From: Cavenderia fasciculata
Taxonomy: Eukaryota > Evosea > Eumycetozoa > Acytosteliales > Cavenderiaceae
NCBI RefSeq assembly: GCF_000203815.1
Contig: NW_004457729.1
Span: 1,612,674 to 1,676,673, forward strand
Reading direction: 5' to 3'
DNA length: 64,000 bases
Position numbers and translations under genes: made by a program
Notes under the pieces: generated by a model
What the model was told of the DNA's origin: nothing
Databases searched by the model: none
Seen by the model: the letters and a program-made list of their open reading frames with translations, nothing else
Part shown: piece after piece, positions 1,365 to 57,500 of the stretch
Layout of the letters: every line of letters begins with the position of its first letter
How positions within the stretch are numbered: the first letter of the stretch is position 1

Positions 1365-4300
1365 ATGCAACAACAACCACCACCATACCATCACCAACAT
1401 GATAAACCAAGTTCTGTAGGAAGTAGTGGTAGCAACTCTTCAAGTGGAAGGAGTTTCCTTGCTCCTACAAAGATACAAAAGAATTCTTCTTCTTCTTCCT
1501 CATCTTCATCTACTACTACTAGTAGTAATACTGGACATAATACAGTATCTACATCTTCATTTTTGTTTTCAAAACCAATCAATATTCCTGCATCGCTTCA
1601 GACTTCGTCGTTGAACAAAAAGAATCAACCTCAGTATCGTGTATCTTCATCGGCTCCCATTAATATACCCGTTCAGAACCGTGCACGAAGTGATAGTCAT
1701 GGTAGCAACACGAGTACAAATAGTAGCAGCAGCGTATCTCCAAGAAAACCATCATCGTTTCAACACACTAGCAGCAGTATGAAGATGGGTGGCAGCTACA
1801 CTTCCTCTTCGGGATCCTCCTACTCTACATCTCCCTCTGGATCGTTTTGGAAGCATTCATCGTCACCTGGTGGCAGTCACCTCGGTGCCACTAGCGGACT
1901 GAGTTTCTTTAAGCCATCCCCTCCAACCGTCCTTTTACGTCCCTCTCCACCACCCTCTTCTTTTCAACAAGGATTACGTAATTCATCCTATTCACCTAGA
2001 GGAGGGGGAGGAGGACTAATGTCAATGTCTCCATCGGGTGCACCCGTCTCTCCCAATGTGACAAATGGAGGGTTTGCAGTGCCAACAGGGCCGACACTTT
2101 CATTTACAAAGGTGCAACCAAAGAACTATAACACGCAAACCACAAGTAGTACTACTGGAGGACTGTCATCATCGTTTACTTTTCTTGCTCCAACCTCTCC
2201 CATCTCACCTCGTCTACACACTTCAACTTCATCAACAACGTCACCACCAAACAATAACAATGATATCTTGTTTACAAATGATGATGATGACGATGATATA
2301 GATATAGTTGAAGATGTTGAAGAGGGAGCGAATGGGATGACTCAAGACCAACTCGAAGATTCAATCTATGAGGATGATGTCGATGAAGGTGACTATGATA
2401 GTCCTCTTGGTGGATCACCTATCATCCCCACCAATTTGGGTAGTCACAATGATGAGACATTAGAGGATGCAGCTTTAACTACATCTACCACCTCGACCAC
2501 ATCAACTACCACTAGTATCGCAACTACCACTACATCCAAAAGACAATCAAGACAAGAAAAGGAAAAGACTAGAATGGTCCAATTCGATGGTCTCCAAGAC
2601 CCCAAAACAACCGAAGATTTGGTAATGGAAACTTGGTCAAAAGTTTCAAAAACACCAAGACATCATCAATCTGACACCTGTATAAAAATTTTACAAGATA
2701 TTTATCAACAATCATCAAATTTTAAATCAAAGAAATATAATCAAAATAATAATAATAATAATAATAGTGAATCAACAACTTTACCAACCTTACCAACATC
2801 AACTTCAACAACATCAACAACTTCGACAACTTCAACAACTTCAACAACTTCGACAACTTCAACTACCTCTTCAGAAGGTGGTGAAACAAAAGAAGAAGGA
2901 GAAGGAGGAGAAAAGGCATTGGAAATTAAAAAAGAAGTAGGAGAAGAAGAAGAAGAAAAAGAGGTTATTGAAGACCCATTCCCACAAGAATTGGTAGAAA
3001 AACCATTGAGAAATTATTTAATTCAACATGCTGCAGGATCAGGCAAAAGTTTAACCATTTCTTGCCTTACATCATGCTTGTACAGATTAATGGAAGGAGA
3101 TCGATATAAATACGATCTCATCGTTGTTTTAAATGATAGACTTCATTTAGATACTCAACTTGGTAGAATTGTTACAAAGTAGGAAGAAAAAAAAAAAAAG
3201 AAAAAGAAAAGATATATATTATTTTTTTTTTCAAATTTAACTAATATTTGATTTATTATTTTGTAGATTTTTAAAGAAAAATAATTTATATTCATATATT
3301 AAAGTAAATTCAAGTAAAATGTTGATGGATACATTGAATCAAGGTAAAAAGAGAATCATTATAACTACAATGCAAAAGTTTATACATTTGGTAGATTCTA
3401 CTGAATTTAATCGATCTAGATTTGCCAACAAGTCGATAGCATTGATATCTGATGAAGCACATCGTACTCATGGAAAGTCAATTACACGTAGTATTCATAG
3501 TCTGCTGTCTGGTGAGACTAGACAAAACTCAAACATCACCTACTTTTGTTTTACATGTACACCAACTCCAAAATGTTTGGAGATGTTTGGTGAACAAAAG
3601 GGAAACACTAAAGCACCTTTTTACTCGTATTCATTGGAACAAGCGTTAAAAGATGGATTGGTTATCAATGCAATTGACAATTATACAACAGTGGCTATTC
3701 TCACAAAGATCAATCATACTGGAAAGAGTGAGGTGGTCGACAAGAAACGTGCAAGTTATCATCTCTTGAAAAACAGTCAAAACGATCGAAAGATTCTTCA
3801 AGAAAAGGCACAGTACATTGTCAAACACTTTGTCAAGCTCAGAGATGTTATCAATACTGACGAGTTTAAGGGTAGGGCCATGTTGGTTACGAGCAGTCGT
3901 CACCAAATCATAGTCTACAAGTCAATCATTGAAAAACTTATCAGAGCATTGCCCAAAGACAAACGATTCGAAGTGGTTGCTTCATTTTCGCCATTTGTAC
4001 AAAGAAAGGTGATCAAGGCAGAATCAACCAAATCAATCAATGGCAAATATGCAGACTATTGTAAATCTCGTGACGGTATTTCAAATATCCTAAAAGATGA
4101 TACCAAACATAAAGTACAATTAATCATTGTCGCCGATAAATTACAAACTGGTTTTGATGAACCAAGTGTAAGTAAACAAAAAAAAACAAATCAAAATTAA
4201 ATTCAATAATATTAATATTAATATTTTATTTATTTATTTTATTTTTTAGTTGGCAGTAATGTATATTGATAAAGCATTAAGAGGAGCAAATGCAGTTCAA

Positions 4301-6406
4301 ACTATTGGAAGATTAAGTAGAACAGCACCTGGAAAGAAAGCTGCATATGTTGTCGATTTTGTAAATAATAGAACGGATATTTCCAACTCGTTTAGTTCGT
4401 ATTGGAGAGAGACAACACTCAAAGGTGCAAGTAAACAGACTCTTTTGGAGATGAAGTTGACCAAGGTATTGAAAAAACTCTCTGCCATTGATCCAATCAA
4501 CAGAGGAGCCTTCCAAGAGTCGATCGACTATATCGTTGACGATGATGAGCGAAGGAAAAAAGAAAAACGTAGTGGAAGTATTCTCGACGATTTATCCGCT
4601 TTTCTTCATCTCTGTGATTCTCTTCAATGGGATCATTCTCACTCTCCTCTCAACTATAAATTTGTTACTCATCTACGTGAAGGTGTAAATGTTAAAAAAG
4701 CTGAATTAAATCATAAATTGAAATCAATTAAAGGGTAACATAAACAAATAAGAAAACAACAAATCAAAATAATATATTAATACTAATTTAATTTTCTTTT
4801 TATTTTTTATAGATTATTATTAAATATTCAAAATGAATCTGAACATTTAGGAGAATCAACAGCAAAAGTTGAAATTGGAGAAACTACACCAATGAGTTCA
4901 ACTAGATTTAGGTTGACATCGAGAACCAATATGGCACACTCTAAAGAGGTTATTTCAAATTTGAATGTTGGTGAAGTGGCTCGAGTCAATGAAATGCTCG
5001 ATAATCCTGTCGTTTCCAAAGGTCCAGATAGTATGGATCTCGATGCTGACAATTTAGAGTTTGCCAAACAGATTTGGTCTGCCAATCCGGCCATTAGACT
5101 TCACAAAAGATTATTGACAGATGATAGTGACAATGTCGAACTCAATCCCAAATCGTTCAATGAAGCATCCACTATTGAACAATCAATGGCCATGGTCATT
5201 GATTTTGTAGTAAGAAATGGTCAAAACTTTGAAACTCTCATCACCAATCAATCACTCCGTGTAGTATTCCCCTTTATGGATCCAACTCATCCAAATCATA
5301 AACAATATAAAGAGAAATTGGCCGCTGCTTTAAAACAATCAAATAATAATAATACTATTCATCATACTTATCATACTCATTTTAATAACAGTCATAATAA
5401 TAATAATAATAATAATAATCATCAAAATAATAATAATAATAATAATAATAATTCTTCTTTATCATCATCATCATCTTCTGTACAGAATTCAAATCAACTT
5501 ACAATCCATCATGGATTACCAAATCTTAAAACATCTGGAACTAATTTGGATATTGTAATGTCTGAGAATAGTTCAAGTGGATCAGGTCATGCAGCATCAC
5601 TTCGTACCTCACAAATATTGCAACAGATTCCAACACAAGATCTACCAATGAATGTGACGTTGCCAGCAATCAACCCAGACTCTATTGTTGGTAGACCACA
5701 TACAGCAGGAAGAAAAGGTGATTGTTTGCTCAATGATTGTGTCGCTTCTTTTTGTCACGACCTCGAATCAAACGATGCTGGACTTAGGGTCTTTTCCATT
5801 CAGACTCTGCTTAGTATGTCGTGTGAGGGTATTCACAAGAATGATATGCACGAAGTCATTGCACCAATCAACAAGATTCTAGTCAACCGCAACGAACATC
5901 TCGGCACCAAGATGATTGCCATCGACCTTATCGGAGCCATTGCAGTCGATGAAACCACCCTTCAACAAGTACTTGAACAACAATTGGTTTTCACGTTGCT
6001 CAAATTGATTGCTGGTGGTGATGAGCCTATTCGCGCCAGAGCATGTCGTCTCTTGACAGCGCTGGTTAGTGAAGTTGCCATTGTGTCTGCATTGCTCGAG
6101 TCACCCAACACTGTCCAACCAATTGTCCAGTTGTTGGATTCCTACGATTACTCGGTCACTGACCATGCACTACGTCTACTCATCACTCTCGCCAACGAAG
6201 AGCGTACCATCAAAGCCATTCGTCCCATGATGGATGCCAATACCTGGAGTAGACTCGAGCATCACAAAATGATATCCATCCAAGATCTCACGGTCCATCT
6301 CAAAGCCCTTCTCATCGGTCCCAAACGTACCCACACCAATCAATTCCAACCTTCCCTTTCAACCAAACGTATAAGAGGTTCAAGTAGTCTAACCAAATCA
6401 AATTAA
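1365..6406 (+). CDS. HsdR-like type I restriction helicase fused to SURP and ARM-like domains
   Basis: Four exons, join(1365..3178,3267..4167,4250..4734,4813..6406), give 1,597 residues in one frame. Residues 1-540 are Ser/Thr/Asn-rich with an acidic patch. Residues about 545-1060 are an SF2 motor of the HsdR type: LIQHAAGSGKS (Walker A, 552-562), VVLNDRLHLDTQL, IIITTMQKF, DEAH (667-670), FTCTPTPKCLEMFG (near 700-712), YSLEQALKDGL, ADKLQTGFDEPS and QTIGRLSR (922-929). These track the motifs of bacterial type I restriction R subunits in order. Residues about 1185-1238 match a SURP (SWAP) domain, an RNA-processing module (VIDFVVRNGQNFE and HPNHKQYKEKL). An Asn-rich linker follows, then ARM/HEAT-like helices at about 1370-1560 and a basic tail (TKRIRG) that could be a nuclear signal. 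No PD-(D/E)XK nuclease motif is visible before the motor. Function is unknown; a nuclear nucleic-acid translocase is my inference. No modification or specificity subunit lies nearby. Confidence 0.85.
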
Positions 6407-14724: not shown

Positions 14725-17700
14725 GATGAGTTAAACATCCATAAAAGACAATCACAATCATATATTCTTACCTTTTCATTACATTTTAAACCAATTAACG
14801 ATTGGTGGCATGCAAGTGATCTGACATGACCACAACTCAAACGACGGTTGACAATTGTTTCACATTCTCCACATCTATCTTTGCATAGTTTTCCACACTT
14901 GTGTTCACAACCAGAGTGTATCTTTTCACACTTTTCAATGCAAATACTGTCTGTGGTTGAACATTTGTCTGTGATGGTGTGTCCACAGCCGAGCTTCTTT
15001 TGGACCTTTACAGGGCACTTTGGGCAATCAGCCGAACAAATACCAGTACATCTATGACCACACAAATTATCCAACTCACATGGTTTTGTGCATTTGATGT
15101 GTTTGTGTTCTCTATCAAACGAATGACCTAAAAAAAATAAAATATATTTACAAGTTGGTAAAATAATATTTCAAAAAGATATAGTTGCAACTAGCATGTT
15201 TATAATTATAACTTACATTTATAATGGCATTGATGTCCACACAACAATCTATCTTCACATTGAAGATAACATCCACCATTGGGAGAACATTGATTAAAGT
15301 CATTTGCTCTATAAAAAGTAAAAAAAAAAATTAATTAATAAATTAAATTTGATAATCTATAAACACTACGACCAAACACTACGACTATATATATGTGAAC
15401 ATACGTTGTAATTTTGTTGATAGTTTTGGGATGATTCTCACAAACAATTGGTAAATAAGAGGTATAGCAACCACGGTCAGTTAAAATTTCGGCAACCTCT
15501 TCCCATAATGGATGAGCACTCTTTAAGAGTTCACCATTTCCAATTATATACATTGCCAGTTTAGCTCTTGACAATGTCACATTTATACGATTCTGGATGC
15601 TAATAAACCCACCAGCTTTTTCATTGTTTGATCTGACAAGACTGACAATGACAATGTTCTTCTCTTCACCCTGGTACTGATCTACGGTTCTCGACGCCAA
15701 CCCTTTCATCTTGGGGTAAAAGTTTATGAGGTTTGAAATTTTACTCTTGATTTTGAGAAGTTGTCCAGTGTAGGGTGTGAGGATAATAATATCTGAGCTA
15801 TCATAACCTTGGTTGATCAGATATTTTGCCAATTCCACCACAAAGTCCATTTCAAATAAGTTGACCTTGGATGATTTAGTATTGTCATTTAATTGTTCGG
15901 AATGACGGTGATCAATAAAATGAACGTTGCTTTGTAAACCTCTGATTTTATCCTTGCTCTCGATCGATCTTGTCACGACATCTTGATGGTTTTGAAGTTT
16001 AGGATAGATTGATTTGATAAAGCAAGAAATATTGGGAGCCATACGACGTTGAGTGTTTAGTGTTTTAAAAGTTGATCCTGGTAACTTTGTAATTCTTTCA
16101 AAGAGCGAAACATCAATGTTATGTTTGTTGAGTTGATAAACAGATGATGATGGACGAAGTTGAAAGTGATCTCCAATCATAATCAAATGTTCTGCAGAGG
16201 GTGGAACTACAGAAAGAATATGACTGAAAATAATAAAAAAAATTAATCTTTTTTAATTCCAACATTTAAAATTAAATAATCGATTTAATATTTGGTACGA
16301 ACCTTTCCATTACTTCGGCTGCTTCTTCAATGATAACCACTTTTGATTTTAATTTTGATAGTACATCCTTGAGTCTTGAAGCTCCAGTTGTTGTCACGCC
16401 AATAACTTCAGTTTTACACAACTCGGTTACATAGGATTGGTGTTCATAGTTTTTAATGTTTTCTGTTTCTACTTTGTGTCGCTCCACTAAATTTCCATAG
16501 ATCTCTAATAAAGACTCGAGATACTTTTTTTGGATATGACTCCAATAGAGAGCTCGGTTGCTAGGATCGAGATCAAATAGATTGTCCACTTCAAAACTGG
16601 CCGAGTTTTGAGACATGGCTTGGAATGTCACTGTCAGGTCGGTTGGAGTCACTTCCTTTTCCGATAGTCGATCCAATCCATCGATGTTTATAAATCTTGC
16701 ATTCATTTGGTCTATTACATCGTCTTCATCTTCTCCATCGTCGTCATCCTCCTCCTCCTCCTCCTCCTCCACTTCATTGGGAACCGGTTCAGAATGACTA
16801 GTTTGAATAGTAATGCCTTTTTTCTTGACAAAATGATTCTCAATTTCCAATCCCAAAGGTTTGAGCCATTTTTTAAAAGAGTTGTATTTCTTTTTCTTTT
16901 TTTGGAAGATTTTCTTTTGCTGGGCTGTCAATCCACCTCCCTCGGTTAGGAATGCAATTGGCACTGCCCCTGTTGATAATTCTTTTGTTGAATAATAAAT
17001 ATAATAAGTAATAAGCATAAAAAACTTTAAAAGTATAAATATTTCATACCTCTTAATATCAGGTTCAGTGATTTTATCGTTGCCTTTCTTTCATCTATCA
17101 TATGCCAATGGTCATGTGATCGGCGAACTTTTTTTGCAAGACTGAACTGTTCCATACCTGGGTCTCTAGACTGGCTTCCTATTCTCACAATGTTTTGAGT
17201 AGTTTTAGCAACATTATTGATAAATTGGTCCAATCTATAAAAAAGATTAAATATTTAGGTTGTAATTTTAAAAAATGATTAAAAATACTACTACTTACGC
17301 ATGATTTGAAAAGCAGATAACAAGAATTGGATGTGATTGCTTTTTCAATATATTTTCAAATAGTTTTAAACCAAGATAAGATTTACCTAAAAAAAATAAA
17401 ATAATAATAATTTGCGTTATTACCACAATTTATAATATATTTTTTTTTGTTTGTTTATACATACCAGTACCAGGAGGACCTTGAATTAAAGCTAATTCAT
17501 TTCTTAGACTATGTAAAAAAGCTTCTTTTTGGGAATCATCCAATGTACCGAGTTGCTTGGGAATGCTGCTTTCGACCAATACATCGACATTTTTGTAGCT
17601 CCTTTTAGAGTATTCTGGATCCTTGATGTCCTCGTAAAATGTCTCACTAAAGTCAAACTGCGAGTCTTCAAGAATGTAGTTTGGTGGCTTCATATTTTGC

Positions 17701-20743: not shown

Positions 20744-23700
20744 ATGAAAATAATATTTTTATCTGTACTATTACTTTTTATGTTGGTATCGGTTGGACAA
20801 TCGGAACTCATTCTTACAGCCTATAACCCAACCAATAATCATTATTACCAACGTTATCAATTCCCAACAGGATCTTTCCTAACAGGATACAATGCAACTC
20901 AATTTTGTTCAGATTTACCAGTTGTCAATGGTACTCAAGCGTATGTATAAATATATATATTACAACAACAAAATATTCATTCGTTCATTTAAATAATAAT
21001 TTATTTAATTAACTTTTGTTCTCTCATATATATCTTATATTTTTATAGATACCTTGTAACTTGGACAACCAATGAAGAATGGTTATGGGCACATAGTGTT
21101 GGTATAGTTACCATTGAAGCTTCTTGGATGTCAGGTACTGATACTCCATCGGGTAGAGATGGTGTCTGGTTTTATAGTTCGGGTCCAGAGCGAGGACAAC
21201 CTTTATACAACCTTTATTTTGATAAATGTTATACTTCTTGTCAATTTGGTCCAGTTGAGCCAAATGTAAGTAAACACCCAAAAAAATATATATATATAAT
21301 TTATATATATCAAAAAGAATAACAATTAACCTTTCTTTTCTAGTTAATTCCAAATGAACATTATTTACATACTAGTGGAACTAAACTTGATCCATATTGG
21401 AATAATAATAATAATCTTGCAGCTATTCCAGCTGTTATTTGTGAGTATGGTGGTATGGAAGAACCAATTATGGCACCCGTCTCTACTGCAGGTGGTGAAA
21501 TGACTGTCACAAATTTGGGAGGATACCAATTATCTACTTTAACCATTACATTTTCAAAGGTGGGTGAAAGCACAACCTTTACATGTGGTGGCATTCAAAT
21601 TATAAACTCTACTGCCGTTACCTGTCAAATGCCAGCACAAACTGGTAAATACACAGTTGTTGTCAAGGATGGTACCAACAAGGTTTCAAAAACCTTCAAC
21701 TATCAATTTGAAAGTCCATTTGTCTCTTCTGTTTACCCAGGATACACCCAAGGTTCACTGTTGACTATAACTGGTACCAATTTCGGTTCCGATGCCAGTA
21801 AACTTGTTGTCACTGTCGGTTCATTGCTCACTCCATGCAATTCTATCAATTTCCTCGTCACCAGTCAAGCTTTTACTTGTATTCTCTCTGCTTCATTATC
21901 AGTCAATAACAAATTACTTCCAATTATAATGACTGTAGATACTTTATCTGTTAGAGCTTATAAACCTGCTGTTTGTATGTATAAAGAGAATAGTTTAAAT
22001 AGAATATCTTAAATAATTCATTTAATTAATTCCACTTTTTTATCTTTCTTTCTTTTTAGATTATGCTGCAAATAGAATGTTTTATTCAGGATTTATTAGT
22101 TCTTCAACATTCCAAGTAACCATTGCCAATTATTCATCACAACTGAGAGTTGATGGACAACCAGGTCATGCAGCTGTCATCAATAGTCAAGGATTATACG
22201 AGTTTTTAAATAATACTCTTCCATTCCCATTTGGTAGTGCTGTATGGCTTGCATGGCAGGGTGCTACATTTAACCCAGCCACTGGAGGTTATACCTATAT
22301 GTCTGGTCCCACTAATGGACAAACTGTACCAGGTGGTATCTATACACTCCAGACTCCCGACACTAGTACTTGGACAGCCTCGTCACAACTTTTATACAAC
22401 CTCTGGAATGGTACTTTGGCCATTTCCGCTGGAGCCGGCTCTACGTTGGTCGAGTATGGTGGTGATACCCCACAATTTAGTGCAAACACTACCAATATGG
22501 TTGGTACTCAGGGTGGCAACGTATCCATGTCGATGGACAACTATGGTACTCAGTTTAGTAGTATCGTCATTACATTCCGTGGTGCTACTGTTCCCTATTT
22601 TAGAGACTTTATCCAATCCTATTTGATTGCCAATGTACCAATCGGTATTGACGGTCCATACGAGATTACCGTGTCGATTGACGGTCGTGCTACACCTACC
22701 AAAACACAATACATCCAATACAGTCCACCAAATGTTGCCACTGTCAACAAAATCCCCACAACTGGTGGATTCATCACCATCCAAGGTACTAGTTTCTACA
22801 ACCTAGTCTCTGCTCTCACTCTTGGCGGTAATTCATGCGGTGTCTTGTCCTATGTCACTGCTCACACCATCGTCAGATGTCAAATGCCAGCTGGTTCAGG
22901 TATCTACCCATCCACTCTAAAGGTCGGTGCACAAGTATCCAACTCTTTCAACGTTATGTATGAAACACCAGTTGTCTCTACAGTCACACAAAACATTTCT
23001 CCATTGGGTGGTAGTATTACCATCAGTGGCAGTAATTTCTTCAATGACGCTACTCGTATTCAGGTCACAGTTGGTGGAGTAGTTTGTAGTAATGTCAATA
23101 TCGTCACTGCACACACTTCAATCAGTTGTACAATGCCAGCTGGTCAAGGTACTAGTTATGCAGTGGTTGTCACTGTATCTGGACAAGTATCCAACAACAA
23201 TGTACTCTTTTCCTATGCTGTCCCGACTATCACCAATGTTCGTCAAATCCAAGATTACATTGAAATCGACGGCAACAACTATGGATCTAATCTAGCTCTT
23301 GTCAATGTTGTCATTGGTTCGATTACCATCACCTCTTCATGTACACTTCAATCCAACACATTGATTCAATGCAAGAATCTTGCTACTACTGTTGTCAGTG
23401 GTGTTGTCAGTATCACCGGTCCATACCCAACTGCCCCAACCTTTACATTCACATTCACCCCCTACTTGACATCCATTACTCCAACTGTCATTCCAACCAA
23501 TGGAAATACAATCATCACAATTAATGGTAGATACTTTGAACAAACATCCAATGGAGTATCAAACACTATCAGTGTTTCTGATAATGGAGTAGCATCATCT
23601 TCTTCTCCACCACAATATGTCAGCAACCAAAGATTATTATATACTAGTCAATCGGGAACTGGTGTCCAAAAGACATTGACCGTTTCTGTCGGATCTAGAG

Positions 23701-26700
23701 CATCGAATGCATTACAGTATAGTTATGGTGCACCAACTCTATCTGCCACTCAGTCTGGTTTGAACATGAGATTGACAGGTACCAACTTTGGTAGTCAACT
23801 AGGATTGGTTTCAGTAAATATTGGTGAGCTTGATATGACCCAGATTGCCTATTCTACCCCACACTCTGTTTTGGATATTGTTCTACCAACCAACGTTCAA
23901 AATGGATTGGTTACTCTAACTGTAGACGGTCAGACTGCTTCTATTACAAATTTCAAGTTCCAACCAACTATTCTATCGGTACAAAGCCCACCTGTTCTCG
24001 GAGGACAATATAACATTACAGGTTATTTAATGGCAACTACCAACCAAGCCGGTCAATCTACCTCTCCAGCATTTACAGTCAACTCTCAAGCAGTTTCATG
24101 TGCCGTCATTGGCGAATCAACCAACACCTCGCCATACACCTATCAATGTCAAATGCCAGCTGGATCAGGAAAGGTACCAGCCATCATGACCATTGATGGA
24201 ACTTCATCACCAGCATTCACCTTTGCCTATCAATCCCCAACAGTCCTTACTGCGTCATCTACCTACTACCAAACACCAGGTCTTGTCACCATTACTGGAA
24301 CCAACTTTGCCAATACTAATCTAGTAGTATCTATACAATCAGCCAATTGTCCAATCAACCAGTTTGTCAATGACACCTTTTTGGTTGTTTCCTATGACTC
24401 TTCTGTCGTTCCACAAGGTTCATTAAACGTATCGGTTACAGTCAATGGTTTGAATGGATGGCGTCAAGCATTCACCTACTTTGGTCTCAGTATAACGTCG
24501 GCCGAACAAATTGGTGAAACTGTTGAAATCCATGGTAATTTGTTTGGTGATGTTTCCAAGCTCACCATATCTGTAGGAAATGCCTCGTCGGTGACAGGAT
24601 GTACTGGAAATGATACATTTATTCAATGCGCCACTCTACCAGCCTCTGCGACCAGTGGATACATCTCTGTAAAGAATGGTCCACTCTTTGATCGAGTCAT
24701 GTTGCTCTTTAGACCAATCCTCACATCCATCACACCAGTTTCAATCCAGACATCTGGCGACCAAATTACATTCCAAGGTAGATTCTTTGAAGATTTCAAC
24801 CCATCAACTGGTTCCATGGAACCTATTCAAGTACTAGTCGATGGTAATGCCTTGTCTTCTGTCACATTGGTCAACGCTCAATCATTGATTCTTGATGTGC
24901 CAGCTGGTTATGGATCCGATCACATTGTCCAAGTATCGTCATTGTCGCTCTTGTCAGAGAATACTTTTAAATTCACCTACAACAATCCACAAATTGTTTC
25001 AGTCGTTCGTTTAGATGCTTCTGATTACAACAGTTTAACTATTAGTGGATCAGATTTTAGTGATAACGCACAAGTTGTTCAAGCTACCATTGGAGGTGAA
25101 TCACTTGTTCTTGTATCAGTCACTCATACTGAAATCATTGTCACTGTTCCAGATAGTGCTAGAAATGGTTTGGTTCAAGTAACAGTATCTGGTTTGGTAT
25201 CTAATGAAATTCAATATGCCCTACAACCAGTCCTCTTGGCCGTCACACCCACCACCAAGTTATTAACTTCTGGTGCCAAGGTTACAGTCACTGGTTATTT
25301 CCTTTCAAGCACAGACTCTCTAGATCAACCATTACAATTAATTATCAATCAAAACTATACCGTCGTCGGTGAGAATAGATCAATTGTATTCTCATACTTG
25401 TCACCATCGATCAATAGTCCATACTCTTTGGAACTTTCCATTCCCATTGGACATGATTCATTTGAAGTTTCTGCCTATTATCCATCTACCAATCTCCAAT
25501 CAAACTCGATCTTGGTTCAATACCACGAACCAATCGTGACATCTGCCACACCAGTTCAAAAGAATGTTGGAGGTGATGTAACCATCTATGGACAATCGTT
25601 TGGTGATGGAGACAATCTAACCGTCACTATTGATACTGTCGAATGTACAGACGCCAAGTTGTTGGATGCCACTGTAGTTTCTCCTCAAAAGATTGTATGT
25701 CATTTTGATGCAAGTGTAGATACACCACTCAACCAAACACTCAATGTAACAGTCACTGCCCATAGTCTTGTTGGTACTGGTGCCGTTTTCCTCTACACCA
25801 AAGAGTTGACTTGTCCAAACAACTGCTCTTTGCACGGTATATGCCAACCACTCACTGGTAAATGTCTCTGTGACGCTGGTTACCTTTCCAGCCCAGACTG
25901 CTCTACCAAGGATGATGGAAATGTTAAACCAGTCGACCCCAATGTCGATCCAAATGGAAATACCACCTTCCCAGCCAAGGTTAATTTCACTATTGCCATT
26001 AGTCATCTAAGAGAAATCAATCTATTGGACAATAGCATTCTCAAGACACTCTCAACCAAGAACCTCGTATGGAATGTATCAACTGTCTCTGATAGCCAAA
26101 AACTCTACACTGGTCGTTTCCCAACTGACCCAGCCGTTATTTTGGTGACTATTACCAATTTCAAGGATGCAGGATCGATTGTGTTTGCCGGTGAGACCAT
26201 CCCAATCGAACCCAACAGTGTAAAGTATGAAGTCACTATCACCGATTGGGAGTGGGTCCAAGCTCTAAGCACACTCGAAATCATCTACAACACCAAGACT
26301 GATAAAAAATCGACATTCAACTGTGAGGAAAAGGATACAGCTCTCACTTCTACTCAAGATTCGGAATCACTCTACTCTTTCCAATTGGATACTGGATCAT
26401 CAGTATTGAATGCACGTTTCTCTACTAGAATGATTGTAGATTCTAGAATTGTACCATCCAAGGTTCTTTTATTGGATGCCAATGATGAACTCTATGGCAA
26501 GGTCAACACTACCGAAAAGGAGTACAATCTTTTAGTAGCCATGCAATCACCACATTTCACTGAATCGACTGTCCTCGATCCAACATTCTCATCACTTCTC
26601 AAGAGTGAAACCAAAACAGAGTGTGGTTCCACTTCAAATTGGCGTATTCCTGTTATCGTTGTATGCAGTGTAGTTGGTGGAGCACTTGTCTTCCTCTCTG

Positions 26701-26777
26701 CTTTCCTCGTACAAAGAAAACTTCGTCATAAAACTTTAAATTCTATTCAAATGTCAAAGAAACGTTATGTCGATTAA
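20744..26777 (+). CDS. ComC-like surface protein: lectin-like, TIG repeats, EGF, transmembrane
   Basis: Four exons, join(20744..20940,21049..21265,21344..21974,22060..26777), give 1,920 residues. The signal peptide is MKIIFLSVLLLFMLVSVGQS. Next come two regions resembling C-type-lectin-like domains (YLVTWTTNEEWLWAHSVG with DGVWFYSSGPERGQP; then GQPGHAAVINSQGLYEFL with WLAWQG). The bulk is many IPT/TIG Ig-like repeats marked by GGxxTIxGxNF and CQMPAGSG motifs. An EGF module follows (CPNNCSLHGICQPLTGKCLCDAGY), then the conserved ComC-type membrane-proximal domain (IVFAGETIPIEPNS). A transmembrane helix (IPVIVVCSVVGGALVFLSAF) ends in a short basic cytoplasmic tail. Proteins of this build are dictyostelid cell-surface adhesion or signalling molecules. 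It is a paralogue of the gene at 44204-50682, which ends in a GPI-type tail instead. The ligand is unknown. Confidence 0.88.
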
Positions 26778-44203: not shown

Positions 44204-47200
44204 TTAAATGAATAAAAGATTTAATAGTAGAGTCGTGATTAAAATTAATTGTGAAAGGTTGTTGAATTGACTTGGAGATGAAGAGTGACCAGTTGAGGAC
44301 GAACCTTTGGTAGTTGATCCTTTGGTAGTTGATCCTTTGGTTGTTGATCCTTTGGTAGTGTGTCCACCTGTTGTGGTGGTTGTAGTCGAATGCCCACCCG
44401 TTGTCGAACTGGTGGTAGTACCACAAGTAGTAGGAGTTGGATCTGGTTTTTGATAACCAAAGAATGATGGATCAAAGGTGGCATTGTAGGTGAAACTAGA
44501 AAGTGTCATGGCAACATAGAGACCTTGGGTATTGGTCGTAAATCTAGAAAGTGGATCTGTGGTTGCGAGTTGGTAAGTTCTCATAGCAATTACTTTTTGG
44601 TCGATAATCGATCGAGAAGTGAATCGTGATTGAACAAGTCCAATGGGAGAATCGATTAAAAAGCTTGTGAGTGTGTTGTTGAGTGCACCAATATTACTGC
44701 TGTTTGTATAGATGACCGTCGAGGCTGTAGTACAATTAAATGCAAATGTCTTTGGTGTCACTGCTCGATAGATAACCTCGAGTTGGTTGTTGGGTGATAC
44801 AAAGCTCCATCCTTTTACAGTGATGAGATGTTTAAAGGATCGAGCTGTTTGAGGTATGGTCTCACCTGCAAACTGCGTTGTAGACGACTTGTTAAAAACG
44901 ACAACCGTCACTGAAAGCAGTGCAGTATTGTTGAGAATGGTTGTATAGGTTGTTGAAATAGAGTCTGTAGAGTTGATCGATGTTTGGGCAGTCCATGTCG
45001 ATGTTGTTAGATCAGACACTGCAACTGTTGCTCCTGATGGGCCAAGCTCACGGACATAGACGATTCCAGTTGCAATTTCAACACCTCTACCAAGACTAAA
45101 GGTTGCATTGGGTGAATTGGACGAGAGTGTTGGTAAAAGTGGTGTTGTGGTGACTGGAATCGAGCATATATCACCAGAGTATCCAATGGCACATTGACAC
45201 CTTCCTCCTATACATGTTCCTCTTCCATTGCAAATATTGGATGATACACCACATAGATTGACTGTATAAAAGAATAATGGAACTGGCAGTGATTCAAGAC
45301 TGACAGATTTGACAGTGACGGGGATTGCATTCATCGAGGGTGGCTCCTTTGATGAGAATGTACAATTGATTGTTGTTCCTTGAGCACTGACCACTGCGTT
45401 TGTACATTGGGTTGATCCAATAGTGACCGTCGATGGAGAATAAAAGTGTTGGCCTGTAATAATTAGATACGAAGAGACATTGTAAACCGTAGAGGTGATA
45501 TCAGTCACAACAGGTGCCAATGAAGTGTAAGAGGAATAAACACTTGTTGCACCATCGATTGAAACAGTCAATGGAGCTTGGTATAAACTAGATGCAACCA
45601 GTTTACAAATAAAGTACTCTCCAGCACTTCCAGCGACAAGAAATTGGCAGGTCGATGATCCAACAGTGATCAAAGTATTGGTAGTTGTACCATTGACACG
45701 GTTGACGTTTAAATAGTGACCTGTAATGTTAATTTGGCCACCATAGGGTCCGACATTGTTTACGATACCAGTTATGATTGGCTTGACAATAAACTCTTGT
45801 TCATTTGCTTGTAATGAATCAACACGGACCAACAATCTACCATTTAAACATACCGATGCAAGATTGACAATGATAGTAGTGTGATTGACAGAGACTATTT
45901 CCATCATATTTTGGTACCATGATAAATCTACCAAAGTGACGCTATCACCAAAATTATTTCCTTGAATAAAAAGGGTGGACTGGTCTTGCACCAAACTTTG
46001 AATTGTAGGTGATTGGTATGTATAATTTTCAAGAGAATGTGATCTACCTTCTATTGAAATGGTAACAGTAGAGTGGGATCCTGTTCCTTTGGGTGCTGAA
46101 AATAGCTTATAGCTAGAGTTTGTAGTTTCAACCTGGAGCAATTGGACTGGTTGACCATTGAATAGAATGACCAAATCGGTTGCATCTCCATTTCCTTTGT
46201 TGGCATTTAAAAATTGACCATTGACAGTGACAATTGAACCACTTGTTTCTGATGGTGTGACACTCGATATGATGGGATATAACAAGACTTGTAATGAATT
46301 GGATAATCTTCCAACATACTCTACATAAACCAATTCATTGAGTGAATTTGGTAATACTGTAAATGTAATAGTGTTGGATGTAGAGTTGAATTCAAATTGA
46401 TTGATTTGTTGATCTTGACCATAATACAACTTTATATCTTGTGCAACACTTCCCCAATTCTTTCCAATTACTTGTATTTCATTCATTGGTGATACTGTAA
46501 CCGAGGTGAGTGAAGGACCGTTAAAAGTGAATGGAATAATATCAAATAATCCATCGATAGTGACGACAAGTGGAAGATCTGATCCTGCACCTACAGGTGC
46601 CACACATTTCAGTACTTCGTATCCATCAGCACCAATAGGTAGTGATTGAATATTGGTACATGGTACACCATCAATAGTCACTGTCACAACAGTGGCCGTA
46701 CCATCTTGTTTGGTTTGACTTAGATAATCACCCAAAATGATAATAGATCCGTCATCTTGATTGGGTGATGTAACATTGATCAAATGTGGTTTCAGTTGGT
46801 ATGAATAAGGAACCGATGAAATACCTGCTACTAATACATTCAACGAACCAGACTTTGAGTATTGTGGAATAGTTACTTGGAATGATTCTTGGGAGCCTTC
46901 AAGCAACAAAGTTGATACAGCATAGTTGGTGAGTGTGGTACCAAAGAATACAAGAATTTGACTAGGATTACTACCAAAACTACTTCCTTTGATGGTGGCC
47001 ATTGTACCATTTTGAATGAAATCGGTTATGGTTGGCACTTTGTATTTGAATGATACAGCATTTGAGATGACATGGTCAATAGACACATACAAATTGTGAG
47101 CTGAACCAAATCCAGATGGAGCATTACACAATAGCTGACCTAAAACCAATGTATTATTGACAAGTGTACATGGATTAGATGTAGTGTCGATATAGACGAG

Positions 47201-50200
47201 TGAAGGGGCGATCGAATCATCTCTACGTTTGAGAGAAAGGTATTTTCCTTGAATGGTGATTGATCCACCCAAAACTGATGGTTCTGAAACACTTTCAATA
47301 TATGGTATCAACTTCAAATCTTTTTCATTTGATACTAGACCGTCAACAGACAAACCAACACCTCCATTTGTAGTATTGTCTGGAATGACAATAGTCATAG
47401 TCCACAAGTTGGTCTGAGAATCAAACAAACTAGTAAGAGGTTGGATAAAAGAAGAAGAACCAAAAAGAATCATTGACTTGTTTATATCACCAATGAAATT
47501 AGTTCCTTGGATGGTGAGGATGGTTTGAGATTGTTGAATATCTGTAATGATTGGTGTTTTGTAATTGGTTGTTGAGTTGGTGTGTTTTGATCCAATGTAG
47601 AGTGTGACTGTTTTATTTGCTCCTGACCCAGACCCCACTTGGCATACCATCTGTCGGTTATCTCCACCAACAATATATGCATTCTGGCATAATACACCAT
47701 CAACTGTCAAACTATATGTGATTGGATTACCAAATACATCAACACTATTAAAAAAGTATCCATCAATAGTGATAGGTCCTCCGATTGTAGGGATTGATGA
47801 CACCGATGTAATAATTGGTTCTAGTGTGAATGGATATTCTGGTGTGACTTGATCACTCACTGATACACTAAGCATGCTGTTGGTTGTAGATGGTGGTATA
47901 GCGATAACGATAACTCCGTTGGACATTGACAGTGGTGATATGGGTGTAGAAATACCTGCAATGCTTACAGTAACAATATCAGGTCTTGATCCAAAATAAG
48001 AACCTGTAATACTAAGTGTTGTTCCATCTTGTATGATTTCTCCAAGTACAGGACCTTGATATCCAACTACACACGATTCCGAAGTCTTTTCATCAATGGT
48101 TAAATAAGCCAACATATTACCTCCAATACCAGGAGGTGCGTTAAATATAAACTGAGTGGTTGACGAGTCATTGGAACTTGACACTAGAGTTGGGTAGAAT
48201 GGTGTGACACCATCAATTACCTTGAGTTCGATGTTTGTGGGATCACCATTCTGTCGAAGTGTGTTGAAAAAGTAGCCTGTCAGTGTCAAGTCACCTCCTG
48301 TGAGTGGCATGCTGCTGGCACTGGTAATAACCGGTGTAAAATTGTAATAGACAGCGTTGGACATTTGTCCACCTACAACTACCGATATATAACCATTTCG
48401 AGTGGTTGGTGGGAATGTAACTTGATAAATGATATAGTTGACGAGTGGATTATTTTGCGTAAACGATACTTGTGACAATGCCGCTGGGACCGTGTAAATG
48501 TCTTGGAATCCAGCGCCAAAGTTTTTGCCTGCGATGCTAACACGGGTGTCTTGGTTGATCGAGGTGAATTGGATGGTAGGAGGTTCGTACGATACGTCGA
48601 TGGTTCCAGTCTGGCCGGCGAGTGTAATGCTGAGCGTCTTGTTGGTGCCGACACCTGGAGGAACGGTACATCTAGCTGTAAAGTGTGTTTGAATCATTGT
48701 AATCGATGTGCACGTACCACTGCCAAAGGTGGCAACCAGGTCGGCTGCACGTTTACCAAGATTATACCCATAGAATGTGATGGGACCGCCAATAGTGGGA
48801 GGTGGTACGACAGAGACGATAGATGGTGGTCGATAAGAGAGTATAGCGTTGCCAAGACGGTATATCTCAATGCTGACATCGAAGGTATGGTTTGCACCAC
48901 TACCTTCTGGCACAATGACACCTAACTGTGTATCACTAGTCTGACGAATATCACCAATCATTCCAATCAAATCGATTCTAAATGTCTTGGTCGATACTTC
49001 AAACCCACTCGATCCTCCAACATTATAATATACTTCTCCACCTGTAGTGTTGACGTAGAGATGTTGTTGTGTTGATAGTTCAAATGGACGAGTGCCAAAA
49101 CATATCAACTCGCCTCTCTGACGACCAGTAACATCCATGATAGTACGAAGCGATGGGTCATAGCCATAGACACGTCCCTGTTGTTTGACCGGTGCTGCGA
49201 ATGTTCCACTCATCCAAATAACCGATGAGTTGAATACTCCTGCTGCAGACACTGCAATCTTTCCATGGTTTGGGCCACCCATCGTATCAATTTCAATCTC
49301 CAAGTTGGCATTCATCACAAGTCCTGAAAAAGACTCCATAGATGTACGCCAAGGATATATTCTTCTTGCAGTGTTTTCCTGCACAGCAGTTGTAAACACA
49401 CATGGATACGCCACATTATAATCAACGGTTGATGGTCTTGCATCTAAAATTCCTTGTCTAATATCATCCCATGATGATAATTGTTGATTTACACTTGTCA
49501 CTGTAACTGATGTTGGTTCGTCTAAAAACAAACAAAATAAAAAATAAAATATTAACAATCTATATTCATTAGTTAGTGATTTGATTGATTTGTACATACA
49601 AAAAGGGATTCTATAACTTCTAATCAATTGTACACCAACTTTGACTTGGAGTGGATAGAGGGCTATTAAATCACTGTAATAATTTGGTGTCATACAAGAC
49701 ACCATTGTGTGTGGTTGGATAACAACGATATTGGTACATTCTTGCATAGAACTGTCACGAATAAACAGACCGTCATATATACTAGGTCCAAAGTTGAGTC
49801 CTACCAGCGTTATTCTAGTTTGGTATTGAAGTGATCCTGGGATGAGATACCGGATATACGGTACTTGATACCTATATTTTGGAAACGAAAAGGACCGAAC
49901 ACCATCATTAAACAAAATACTACTTTCATGTTTACCTTCGGGTATTTCAACGATGAAATTGGTCAGTGAACGATTGGTAATGGTTAAGGCGACAGCTGGC
50001 AATAATCCAGATGGTACCATGGTGATCATAAGAGTAGACAGGTTCCATAGAGGTGTACCCTTGTCCAATTGAGATACAACTACCGACCCTCCTTGTGTTA
50101 GAGCAGGTGGCAAGTATGGATCATTCAATCCTCCATACTCTATAATAAAAGTGTATGTGGCATTTGTAGTGATGTTGGTCGTTACCATTCCATCATTTGT

Positions 50201-50682
50201 CGATTGAATAACATCACCACCATACGATCTTGGTTCCAAGAATGCCCAATTACAATATTCATAGCACCTTCCCAATGATTGTCTATACATTGGCATATTC
50301 TTCTCTGGTCCACCACTCCAATAGAATAAATCTGGTGATCCCACTCTACTGGCACCAAATACAAATGACTGACCATAAGTGTAACTTATAAATGTATATT
50401 CTTGATCACTTGTAATTGTTGCCAAATATCTAAATTAATTAAAAATCAAAAAATTACATTAATAAATGAGATTATTTAAATAATTATTATTAGTTTGACA
50501 TACCCTTGATGATTGTTAAAAGTTTTGGAATTAACTATAGACATGACCGAATTATAGTCTTGTCCTGTTAATGTCAACTTTTCATAATAATGATTATTGC
50601 CTGTCCATAATGTTTGTCCATTTATAAAACTTGATTGAACAAATAATACCAGTATGATTGAAATGTATATATATTTAATCAT
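44204..50682 (-). CDS. ComC-like TIG/EGF surface protein with GPI-anchor-type tail
   Basis: Three exons, complement(join(44204..49521,49600..50429,50504..50682)), give 2,108 residues. The signal peptide is MIKYIYISIILVLFVQSSFI. A C-type-lectin-like start (GYLATITSDQEYTFISYTYG, LFYWSGGPEKNMPMY, GRCYEYCNWAFLEP) is followed by about fourteen IPT/TIG Ig-like repeats (GGxITIxGYF, GSGANKT). An EGF module (CNGRGTCIGGRCQCAIGYSG) precedes the ComC-type domain (TQFAGETIPQTARSF). The C-terminus is a Thr/Ser/Gly stalk with four TTKGS repeats, then a small-residue region and a short hydrophobic end (LILITTLLLNLLFI) with no cytoplasmic tail, as in GPI-anchored proteins. It is a paralogue of the transmembrane protein at 20744-26777. 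The second intron (49522-49599) is 78 bases with no in-frame stop. Confidence 0.88.
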
Positions 50683-52766: not shown

Positions 52767-54545
52767 ACAATCATGTTATAATAAAAAATGGATGAAAAAA
52801 GAATAGAAGAATATAATATATTATAATTAAAAAGAAAGAAGAACATAGTAGTACGCACAAAGAAATCATAGTAGTACCAATTCAAAGATCTTAGGATATA
52901 TTAATAATAATTGGTTTGGTTCTCCTTTTAAAGGTGGAAATCTCATTATCATACTATAGTTGGTTGGGTTATTGATTACATCACATTGCAATGTAATCTG
53001 ATTGAAATCACATCAAAAAAATCGATTCCTGCTTGGAAAAAGTGTAGGTGAATTATTTACACCAACACCATGCCACACTCATTCACACACATACAACAAA
53101 CAATGTGGATCGATTTTTTTTTAACCACTATCCGGTGTACGACGATATATATACACGTCCTGTTACGATAACCATCCACCCCCTACCTTCCTTCCTACCC
53201 ACCTACCTATGCAATCTTGCTTGTGTTGTTATTGTTATGTTGATCAACATTATTGACCAAATTGGATTGCTCTTTTTTTTATATGTCTTTACGCTCCAAT
53301 AATAGCTAGTTGAAAATATAAATCGAATTTCCATTCTACTCTCTCAGTGTTTGGTGGGGGGTGAAATAGAATAGGATGGATGGTAAATCATTTAATACTC
53401 TACTGTTGATCAAGAGTAGAGGTAGGGAGGGGACTGTGCTAAATTACACATAGATCATCATGAACCATATAAATGGATGAATAAAGTAAATCAATGGAAA
53501 GAAAGAGAGAAAGAGAGAGAGAGAGAGAAGTGTGTTTCATCAAAAATAGGTGACAACACAAAGAGAAAACAGAATAGAGAGAGAGATAAAAAAAAAAAAG
53601 AGAAGGAACTCCAACTGAACGGGGACATTACATTACAATTTGACTTATAGTCATTTAAATGATAAAACAACAAACAACGTTGTCGACAATAATCTATCTA
53701 TCTATCTATCTTTCTATCTAGCAATCTATCTAGCAATAAAACCAATCCATTTGTTGTTTTATTGTTAAATCTAGATTATTATTATTTTTAATTTTTTTAT
53801 TCTCATTCAACAAAGAAATAATTATTATTATTATTTATTTATTTTTACAATACAATTCAGTCAGTCAGTCAAACAGTAATAATAATAATAATTTAGAATA
53901 AATAGAATAATAATTTAAAATTAACGGATCATCAGATTTTAAATTAGCCAAACAGAGAAGAGAGTAATATTATTGGCGAAAGATTGTAATTTCATTTTTT
54001 CAATTTTTCTGTTATTGTTGTTGTTGTTGTTGATATCAACAAAAGACAACTCTAAAAAGTAATTACTAGGTTTGGAGGGACGGTGGTTTTTGTTACGAAT
54101 CATAAAATTCCTTCCTTTTCATCTTATCTCCTCTTGACTAGTCTATAGAGACTGACTGTCAGTTACAATTTAAACCCTAACCAAACCGACTCTTGTGGAT
54201 AGGATCAAAACACAACAGCAGCAGCAGCAGCAGTATATATCAACTCGACAAGTCTCTATTCTTGGGAGAGGAATTTCAACCTTTTGTTTCAACAATAATA
54301 TTAATATTAATTAATATTTGTTTATTATTTATTTATAGTTGTTCATTCATCAAACTAAACATAGATCAACAAAATTAGGCATAAGACCAATCATCACTCA
54401 ACAAACTAGTAATAATAATCATAATAATATTATTATTAGTATTTTCCAAACATCCAAAATCAATTTTCCATCCATCCAACCAACTACTATTTTAAAAAGT
54501 TTATTTTGATTTTAATTTAACAAACAAAGAAAAATATAACAAAAA
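52767..54545. other. Intergenic, 1.8 kb, promoter of the hybrid kinase
   Basis: No gene is seen. There is a GATTACAT ... ATGTAATC hairpin at 52974-52998 that encloses ACATTGCAATGT, GA-rich tracts near 53500-53600, TCTATC repeats near 53690-53740, and a (CAG)n run of about six units near 54218-54235. The large spacing suggests a long regulatory region or unannotated leader exons for the kinase. Confidence 0.5.
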
Positions 54546-57500
54546 ATGAATATGAGTTCAGCAAGTTGGTTACAAGACTTTTATATCGGTGAAAAGATAC
54601 AAGAGGAAAAGATATTCTCCATCTTTACAGCTACCTATTTTTCGCACAATAATTTATTTTTGAATCAGTGGAATCAGCCAAATGCACAACTACCACATCA
54701 ACCAAACTATGTTTCTTCGACTTCATCTGCTTCATCTGCTTCTTCAGCTTCATCTAATTCACATAGCAATGGTAATAGCAACAACAACAATAACAACAAC
54801 AATAATAACAATAGTATTAGTCTCAGTAGCAATATCAATAGTATAAGCAATAATAATAATAATAATAATATCAACCAACAACTAGTATTAAAGAATAATA
54901 ATAATGTTATCAATGGTATCAACACGACAAATAACAATAACAATAACAATAATGTATTCAAGTTGGATCAGTCATCCTCACCTTTAATATTAAAGCAACA
55001 ACAGCAGTTTCCCAAAATCAAGGATAAAGAAAAGGATAAGGATAAAGACCAAGATCAATCTACCTCTTTAACAAACAATCCAACTGTTTCGACAACTAGT
55101 ACTAGTAGCACTACGAGCACTCTACTCTCAGCTACTAGTATTAATCTAGTTAGTCCAAGAACTGATATCAATAATAACAACAATAACAATGGATACATTA
55201 AAACTCATATCAAAGGAGCATCATCTGCTTCATCAATACCAACACCACCATCAGCATTGTTACAACCAACACCTGCTATTGTATCATCTAATACGACTTC
55301 GACTACTTCAACTACGACTAGTTCGAAACAATCAACATCATCGTCGTCATCACAAACTCAACCTGTTACAGTTGGTGCTCCACAAACTCCACACTTGGCC
55401 AAACATTTTTCATTGGAGAATGTAAATTATGATGGTGTATCATCTGGTGGTTCATCGTCATCATCGTCGTCACTGAGTGGATTATCAGTCCCACCAATCA
55501 CTTATACTGGAGCATCGGCCAATAGTGGTACACCATCATCGGCCAGTCGACATGCAGAGATATTATTCTCCAACCAAAAAGTACTCCTTAAAATAATCAA
55601 TACCAAGTACCCTTCAATGGATCTAATGTCATTGTTTCAAAGAGAATTTGCCATTCTCTCCATACTCAACAATATAGATGGTGTCATTAAAGTATTGCGT
55701 GCACAAACTGAAGTAGGATCGATATTTGCATTTGTCCTAGAGGATAGTGGATTCAAACCACTCACATCTGTCTTTTCATCTATGGGTCCACCAACTCCAA
55801 CATCATTACAAGGAAATAGATCAACATCAACATCAACATCTACAAACAACACCACAACAACATCATCTAGTTCATCACAACAATCAAGTGAGTCTAGAGA
55901 ATCCAGTCTAAACAATTCACAAACAAGATCAACACCAAATTCTGGGGACACTGCCAGTACCCAATCATCCTCTTTATCACCCGCATCACAATCGAATAAA
56001 CTACCAACCCCTCAATCATCATCACCTATCATCACATCAACCACTGCCATCAAATTTCAAGATATGGATTTAATGACCTTTATCAATATTTCTATTCAAT
56101 GTATGTACAAACAAACAAACATAAACCACTAACTAAATTTATAATTAACAATATTAACAATATTATTTATTTATTTATTTGTAGTGGCAAAAATATTAGA
56201 AGAAATTCATCTAAGAGGATGTATACATCGTGATATTAGACCATCGAATATTTATATTAGCAATGGTATTGTAAAGTTGGCCAATTTTCAATTCTCGGTC
56301 ATTAAACTTTCCAATGGTCAAACGATTGATAATTCATTACTCTATCTAAAGACATTTCCAGAGATTGGACGTTATAATAGTACATCTTATTATTATTCAT
56401 CACCCGAAGAAACTGGTCGTACTCAACATACGGTCGACTATCGATCCGATCTCTATTCACTCGGTGTTACATTTTATGAATTATTAACCAATAGATTACC
56501 ATTCCAAACAAATGATCTATCTGAATTAATTCATGCTCATTTGGCAAAAAAGGCTCCTTTTGTTTCTGATTTAAATTATAATGTACCTCCAAGTATGTAA
56601 AAAATATAAAATAATATAATTAATAATATTTATATATATATTCTCATTATTAATCAACTTTTTTTACTTTATAGTATTATCAAAAATAATAGATAAATTA
56701 TTAAAGAAATCACCAGATGAAAGATATAATAGTGCATATGGTCTAAGAAGAGATTTAGAAATATGTAAATCACAAATTAGTTCAAATTGTACAACCGATG
56801 GTTTTGAATTGGGTATTTATGATGTATTACATCGTCCTCATATTCCAACTGAATTATATTCAAGAAAGAATGAATTAAATGCCATTGTAAGTATAGAAAA
56901 CAATATAGATTTATTTATTTTATTGTATTTATTTAATTATATTTTATATTTATATTTATATTTATTTATTTAGTATCAATCAGTTAATAGAGTTTGTAAA
57001 GGTAATAAGGAATTTATATTTGTATCGGGTGGTAGTGGAGTTGGAAAGACATCTTTGATTAATGCTGCCAAGAAAAAGGCACCTTCGGGACCAAGATTTA
57101 TAGCTGGCAAGTTTGATTTGTATAATAGAGGTGTGCCATATAGTGCAATTATCGAAGCATTGAACGAATTGATGCATATGATTCTAGTACTCAGTCCAGT
57201 GGAATTGGCATTTTACAAGGAGAAATTACATCGATCTTTGGGTCCCAATGTAGGTGTCATTGTCAATGTTATACCATTGCTCGAATTGATTGTTGGACAG
57301 TATCCACCAGTACCAGCATTACCACCATCCGAGAGTCAGAATCGTTTCGATTTAGCATTCAAAGACTTTTTACGTGTCTTTTCAGAGGAAGGACACCCAC
57401 TCGTTTTGTTCCTCGACGATTTACAACGTGCCGATGAAGGATCATGTCGTCTCATCAAACTCATACTAGAAAACAATAATAATCTACGACATTTACTCAT

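Follow-up and report, generated by a model that had tools for sequence, protein, structure and literature searches.

Type I restriction R subunits (HsdR) are motors that act together with HsdM and HsdS, and their activity ends in DNA cleavage. Among eukaryotic proteins, FANCM and the SNF2 family move on double-stranded nucleic acid at the expense of ATP, and MORC proteins, which have a role at chromatin, are GHKL ATPases rather than superfamily 2 (SF2) translocases and carry no SURP domain. The MORC proteins nevertheless set a precedent, that of an ATPase family found in prokaryotic restriction-modification systems and traced into eukaryotes (PMC2292703). Here we describe a gene of the dictyostelid amoeba Cavenderia fasciculata that appears to combine an HsdR-type motor with a SURP domain. 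It lies on the plus strand at positions 1365-6406 of a 64,000-nucleotide (nt) stretch of contig NW_004457729.1 (positions 1,612,674 to 1,676,673, forward strand), hereafter called the window. With a probability of roughly 0.6, we consider it a eukaryotic gene whose motor was gained laterally from prokaryotic HsdR long ago, lacks the nuclease and was duplicated, and whose product, in this copy joined to a SURP domain and an armadillo (ARM)/HEAT-like solenoid, works as an ATP-driven translocase that does not cut.

Predicted splicing leads from the ATG at 1365 to the TAA at 6406 through four in-frame exons that encode 1597 amino acids (aa). The span agrees exactly with that given in an earlier note on this DNA, as does the number of introns, three, all of them GT-AG; the six peptides quoted there are all present in the spliced product (at aa 549, 587, 700, 726, 897 and 910). 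The parts of the gene, and a second motor gene discussed below, are as follows.

1365-3178, plus strand: exon 1, with a low-complexity N-terminus, the HsdR-type PRxHQ (aa 431-435), the start of the motor and the Walker A motif GSGKS (aa 558-562)
3179-3266, plus strand: intron 1, 88 nt, GT-AG, 14% GC
3267-4167, plus strand: exon 2, the bulk of the motor, with DEAH (aa 667-670), FTCTPTP (aa 700-706) and QTGFDEPS (aa 898-905)
4168-4249, plus strand: intron 2, 82 nt, phase 0, immediately after FDEPS
4250-4734, plus strand: exon 3, the end of the motor (QTIGRLSR) and a linker; resemblance to HsdR extends as far as aa 971
4735-4812, plus strand: intron 3, 78 nt, 13% GC, CTAAT at -30, phase 2; the join on which the fusion claim depends
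4813-6406, plus strand: exon 4, with the EFAKQIW block, SURP (aa 1195-1238), an Asn-rich linker, ARM/HEAT-like helices (about aa 1432-1545), a tail and the stop codon
L004:2844-6177 (G000:C14), minus strand: second HsdR-type motor gene, six predicted exons, 969 aa, on another contig than the window gene

The setting is an ordinary eukaryotic one: the host contig is large (the genome searched comprises 31.0 Mb in 21 contigs), the gene has introns, GC content is 34-40% in exons and 9-14% in introns, and one intron is exactly common to both copies, the fourth intron of the second copy lying in phase 0 directly after FDEPS as does intron 2 of the window gene.

Derivation of the motor from a type I R subunit is well supported by sequence comparison. 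Like EcoR124I HsdR (2w00/6h2j) and the HsdR family described by TIGR00348, the window protein possesses SWI2_SNF2 (aa 549-754, E 4.5e-24) and T1R_D3-like (aa 808-942, E 1.3e-12) domains, both over the Pfam cut-off, together with SF2 motifs in order, linkers typical of R subunits and the PRxHQ motif. Pfam also matches ResIII and DEAD in the motor, beside these R-subunit models; an R-subunit origin is nonetheless indicated because Pfam, NCBIfam and PADLOC (with REase_I) all rank type I R-subunit models first. When the 521-aa motor part was scanned, the NCBIfam hsdR model TIGR00348 matched with 159.7 bits (E 1.1e-46) over profile positions 271-672 of 674; unlike HsdR itself, this motor part stays below the family cut-off of 284.55 for the whole protein, and positions 1-270 of the profile are unmatched. 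All five sequences below E 0.1 in a sequence search of the PDB were HsdR of the EcoR124I type, and a partial structure model ranked nearest, weakly, to EcoR124I HsdR, its only Foldseek match at E <= 0.001. An HsdR-motor profile built from 172 rows (plasmids, genome contigs and viral contigs) scored 331.5 bits with the window protein and 326.2 bits with the second copy, while SF2 frames from the same genome (the best 16 of 44 ResIII places) did not exceed 9.9 bits when filters were off. This difference, with the R-subunit Pfam models, agrees with the proposal in the earlier note that the motor is of the R-subunit type and not a generic SF2 helicase; a grouping with ordinary eukaryotic SF2 helicases did not appear, in that the profile scores speak against it, and the trees described below comprised HsdR rows. 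Weaker matches of other SF2 families (dnd_restrict_1, E 3.1e-8; PbeA, E 5.7e-8; RadD, E 4.8e-6) detract from the assignment.

The second copy bears the same Pfam motor domains, over the cut-off, and its motor is 45% identical to that of the window protein over 442 aa. Genome-wide, SWI2_SNF2 matches are confined to these two loci. Since a Pfam scan of the second copy gives neither a SURP nor an ARM match, the gain of the motor and its fusion to SURP and ARM-like parts need not have been one event.

In several respects the window protein departs from HsdR. The HSDR_N nuclease was found in it neither by Pfam nor by a profile of HsdR N-termini, the latter (156 of 167 sequences) aligning only at PRxHQ within the N-terminal parts of both copies. 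Six-frame searches of the whole genome gave no match to HSDR_N (controls matched 9/14), to the HsdM-type N6_Mtase (13/14) or to the HsdS-type Methylase_S (9/14), whereas each of the six annotated relatives scanned, all on plasmids and of which five are bacterial and one archaeal, carries HSDR_N. The absence of the nuclease, put forward earlier as a loss, is thus supported, and, because nuclease and partners are both absent, a role in restriction is argued against. At the other end, the similarity of the window protein to a 90-sequence profile of HsdR C-termini stops at aa 971, so that the helical region which follows the motor in HsdR is not matched in this copy; the second copy aligns to this profile further beyond the motor, weakly. 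Introns and the added SURP and ARM-like parts likewise set the window gene apart. On a Meiothermus plasmid, a gene for HsdR with HSDR_N (L009:656-5570) has macro-domain, AAA and DUF4276 genes as neighbours; HsdM and HsdS are not among the genes listed in the 8.3 kb shown, for which the gene table is incomplete.

Where does the motor come from? Two trees were computed. The first, rooted at its midpoint, held 45 rows, namely 42 representatives below 62% identity drawn from the 172 motor rows, L179 and the two amoeba motors; the second held 52 rows, with four distant rows dropped, 11 search hits added and L179, on a very long branch, as the sole outgroup. In both, the amoeba motors form one clade (support 100/99 and 100/97) that is sister to every sampled member of the prokaryotic YLIQHSAGSGKS HsdR subfamily (subfamily support 95/92 and 98/92), and on the opposite side of this assemblage lie five distant plasmid HsdRs in the first tree and one of these in the second. 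By sequence, the motor is placed inside the HsdR family as sampled and outside any sampled subfamily. The nesting within bacterial HsdR that had been anticipated therefore holds at the level of the family as sampled, but the pair is sister to its nearest subfamily and not within it. As more distant HsdRs lie beyond the two, we name no donor.

Searches for closer relatives covered several collections. A plasmid tblastn search gave 2189 records, with the 20 best and 40 at even steps listed, and among these listed matches the ones of 39-42% identity span only 13-20% of the query; a phage search gave 21 records, 15 of them listed. One scan of genome contigs found no relative in 30 stretches. A second found 585 relatives among at least 591 stretches, the best 80 being 29-34% identical, and its sampling favours one subfamily because the stretches were found by two patterns (YLIQH.. 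and DEAH..). Scans of viral contigs yielded no relatives in part, and in another scan 162 relatives, the best 80 of the 162 at 30-34% identity and none closer. With a two-row profile of the amoeba motors we searched 10 genomes and then samples from the phyla of three relatives (Gammaproteobacteria, Bacteroidales and Acidobacteria), in which 7/398 (E <= 1e-60), 0/395 and 3/396 (E <= 1e-64) genomes matched.

An old lateral gain of the HsdR motor is, in our view, supported short of proof. Of the horizontal gain claimed in the earlier note, an HsdR-type motor in an ordinary eukaryotic gene stands, while nesting in a sampled bacterial subfamily and a donor are missing. Several observations count against the gain as we picture it: no near donor emerged, the nearest listed relatives sharing 34-36% identity along most of the query and genome searches scoring 237.8 bits at best; the amoeba pair sits on a long stem; the first tree carries warnings about long branches meeting and about the letter make-up of the second copy; and the eukaryotic side of the comparison consists of the C. 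fasciculata genome alone, which limits the dating of a transfer. Alternatively, the motor may belong to an older eukaryotic HsdR-type family, inherited vertically in Amoebozoa or more widely, or acquired via a virus, instead of having been transferred into dictyostelids. This differs from our preferred explanation in date only. The branching of the pair outside the nearest prokaryotic subfamily as a whole, so far as this was sampled, its long stem, the missing donor lineage and a base composition similar to that of other genes in the window would all fit such a family. Conversely, the 16 transfer candidates given for D. discoideum and D. purpureum (section 10 of PMC3188802) include neither HsdR nor any helicase family, a weak hint of patchy distribution, and the viral contigs gave nothing closer. 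We regard this older origin as rather unlikely, and prefer an old transfer.

Downstream of the motor, in exon 4 of the same gene model, the SURP domain proposed earlier exceeds the Pfam cut-off (aa 1195-1238, E 2.8e-6, 27.7 bits against 21.1). In a search of the genome it scored 33.4 bits and was one of five SURP places listed. The window protein thus resembles the SURP splicing factors (SF3A1, U2SURP, SFSWAP and CHERP) in having one SURP over the cut-off, and its closest solved structures are those of SF3A1 (E 2.8e-5), with an SF3A1-SF1 entry also matched (E 0.0028). We know of no member of this group with an HsdR-type motor, and in one literature search on SURP no title concerned such a combination. 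As to the ARM-like helices of the earlier note, matches to designed repeat proteins (phmmer, best 4rv1, E 7.1e-12, a sum of weak stretches at E 0.12 to 42 each) would fit an armadillo-like character, but every ARM or HEAT model stays under its Pfam cut-off (ARM_PUB, E 0.0087; ARM_ARMC5, E 0.011; HEAT_2, E 0.028). A structure model of this part was unusable (predicted local distance difference test, pLDDT, 40.6).

Are the motor and the SURP/ARM part encoded by a single gene? The sequence evidence favours one gene, and a single gene is a supported reading. In the competing account two adjacent genes have been misread as one: the first, for the motor, would stop at the TAA at 4736-4738, and the second, for the SURP-ARM part, would begin at the ATG at 4892 in exon 4. 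This exploits the soft point of our model, namely that exon 3 reads into that TAA within the donor of intron 3 (GGGTAACA), and the lack of a SURP or ARM match in the second copy is in line with it. Other points also tell against a single gene: the gene structures of both copies are predicted splicing; 16% of 78-nt flank pieces are open in one given frame by chance, so that openness alone is little proof; the coding signal ahead of the ATG of exon 4 is weak; and the regions preceding the last introns of the two copies show no significant alignment (388/1000 shuffles), wherefore the positions of these introns cannot be equated. Yet in length and GC content intron 3 does not stand out from the other seven introns predicted in the two copies (73-98 nt, 9-19% GC). 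A branch-like YTRAY occurs in all eight introns and CTAAT in four of them, a weak test in AT-rich DNA. Across the codons preceding the first ATG of exon 4 (25 of 26 scored), the spliced frame is the best of the three, at -0.04 versus -0.60 and -0.90; for reference, the intron scores -1.07 to -1.38, the final 30 codons of exon 3 score -0.14 and the body of exon 4 scores 0.51. Each copy ends in an exon that follows a phase 2 intron, and common to these two exons is a D..EFA.Q[IL]W block, at a score reached by 4/1000 shuffles, which in the window gene lies within the same uninterrupted exon as the SURP and ARM-like parts. Moreover, two genes would leave only about 150 nt for a terminator and a promoter. 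We therefore hold a misreading of two genes to be improbable and continue with a single motor-SURP gene.

How might its product work? Among 167 rows, 85 columns are conserved at a level of 95% or more; both copies keep 58 of these, including GSGK, DEAH, TxTP, QTG.D.P and QT..RL.R, and the catalytic motifs are intact in both. An active ATPase is predicted from the intact motifs and from constraint that is limited to the motor; descent from HsdR argues for predicted translocation on double-stranded DNA; and the SURP domain suggests putative docking to a helical peptide in the nucleus. SF1 is reported to bind SURP domains, through a region whose key residues Dictyostelium retains in part (PMC4666396). 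We envision that the motor would hydrolyse ATP and move along double-stranded nucleic acid without cutting, along DNA if the ancestral substrate is retained, that SURP would recognise a helical peptide within a nuclear partner, in the way SURP domains bind SF1, and that the ARM/HEAT-like solenoid might supply a second contact, so that the motor would work at chromatin or on nascent transcripts. ATPase activity, translocation, the DNA substrate, the nuclear place and the SURP partner are all predictions from sequence; the protein is probably nuclear, and its ATP-driven movement is probably like that of FANCM and the SNF2 family, from which the motor differs by subfamily according to its profile. 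As for fusion to RNA-processing modules, SURP is present in the same gene model, and it is this domain that hints at a possible role in RNA processing. A bolder version, in which dictyostelids domesticated a restriction DNA motor as a nuclear machine, free of nuclease and partners, with one copy plugged by SURP into the early splicing machinery and acting on nascent transcripts or on foreign or mobile DNA, strikes us as doubtful.

Might the gene instead be a decaying relic devoid of function? Its motor has indeed diverged: 27 of the 85 columns are altered in at least one copy, the two copies share substitutions at positions where the rows do not vary (S556A, S671R, G675K, A702C, K705T and N928S), and a long low-complexity insertion ahead of Walker A extends the distance from PRxHQ to 122 residues, compared with 33 in the second copy and a median of 26 (maximum 27) in 161 relatives. 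These features weigh on our interpretation as well, and owing to the long spacer the activity of the motor may have changed. A relic would, however, hardly be expected to maintain an open frame over 1597 codons, and the motor motifs are retained in two copies just 45-48% identical whose flanks no longer align, which indicates selection on the motor. Decay is accordingly very unlikely. That an ordinary eukaryotic SF2 helicase (of the FANCM, Dicer/RIG-I, XPB or SNF2 type) converged on HsdR is scarcely credible, given the HsdR-profile scores, the T1R_D3-like match and the single Foldseek match.

The locus suggests that a bacterial defence motor was reused inside a eukaryotic cell. If our interpretation is true, a nuclease-free eukaryotic descendant of the R subunit, duplicated and in one copy joined to SURP, would represent a new fate for a restriction motor, parallel to that of the MORC ATPases, and would offer a tractable amoeba system in which to study the action of a bare restriction translocase in the nucleus.

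Elsewhere in the window, an AAA_12 helicase domain, which we take to be of the UPF1/senataxin type, occupies 15338-16252 within 15335-17090 (minus strand), and the adjoining frame on the same strand has no Pfam match. By eye, a large kinase gene at 54540-63384 (plus strand) comprises a histidine kinase and a receiver part besides AAA-like and GAF-like ones; in 57883-60300, the sole piece scanned, Pfam matched nothing at E 1e-4. At 22026-26777 (plus strand) and 44204-50434 (minus strand) lie two very long open frames that contain by eye apparent extracellular IPT/TIG-like repeats and an EGF-like end.

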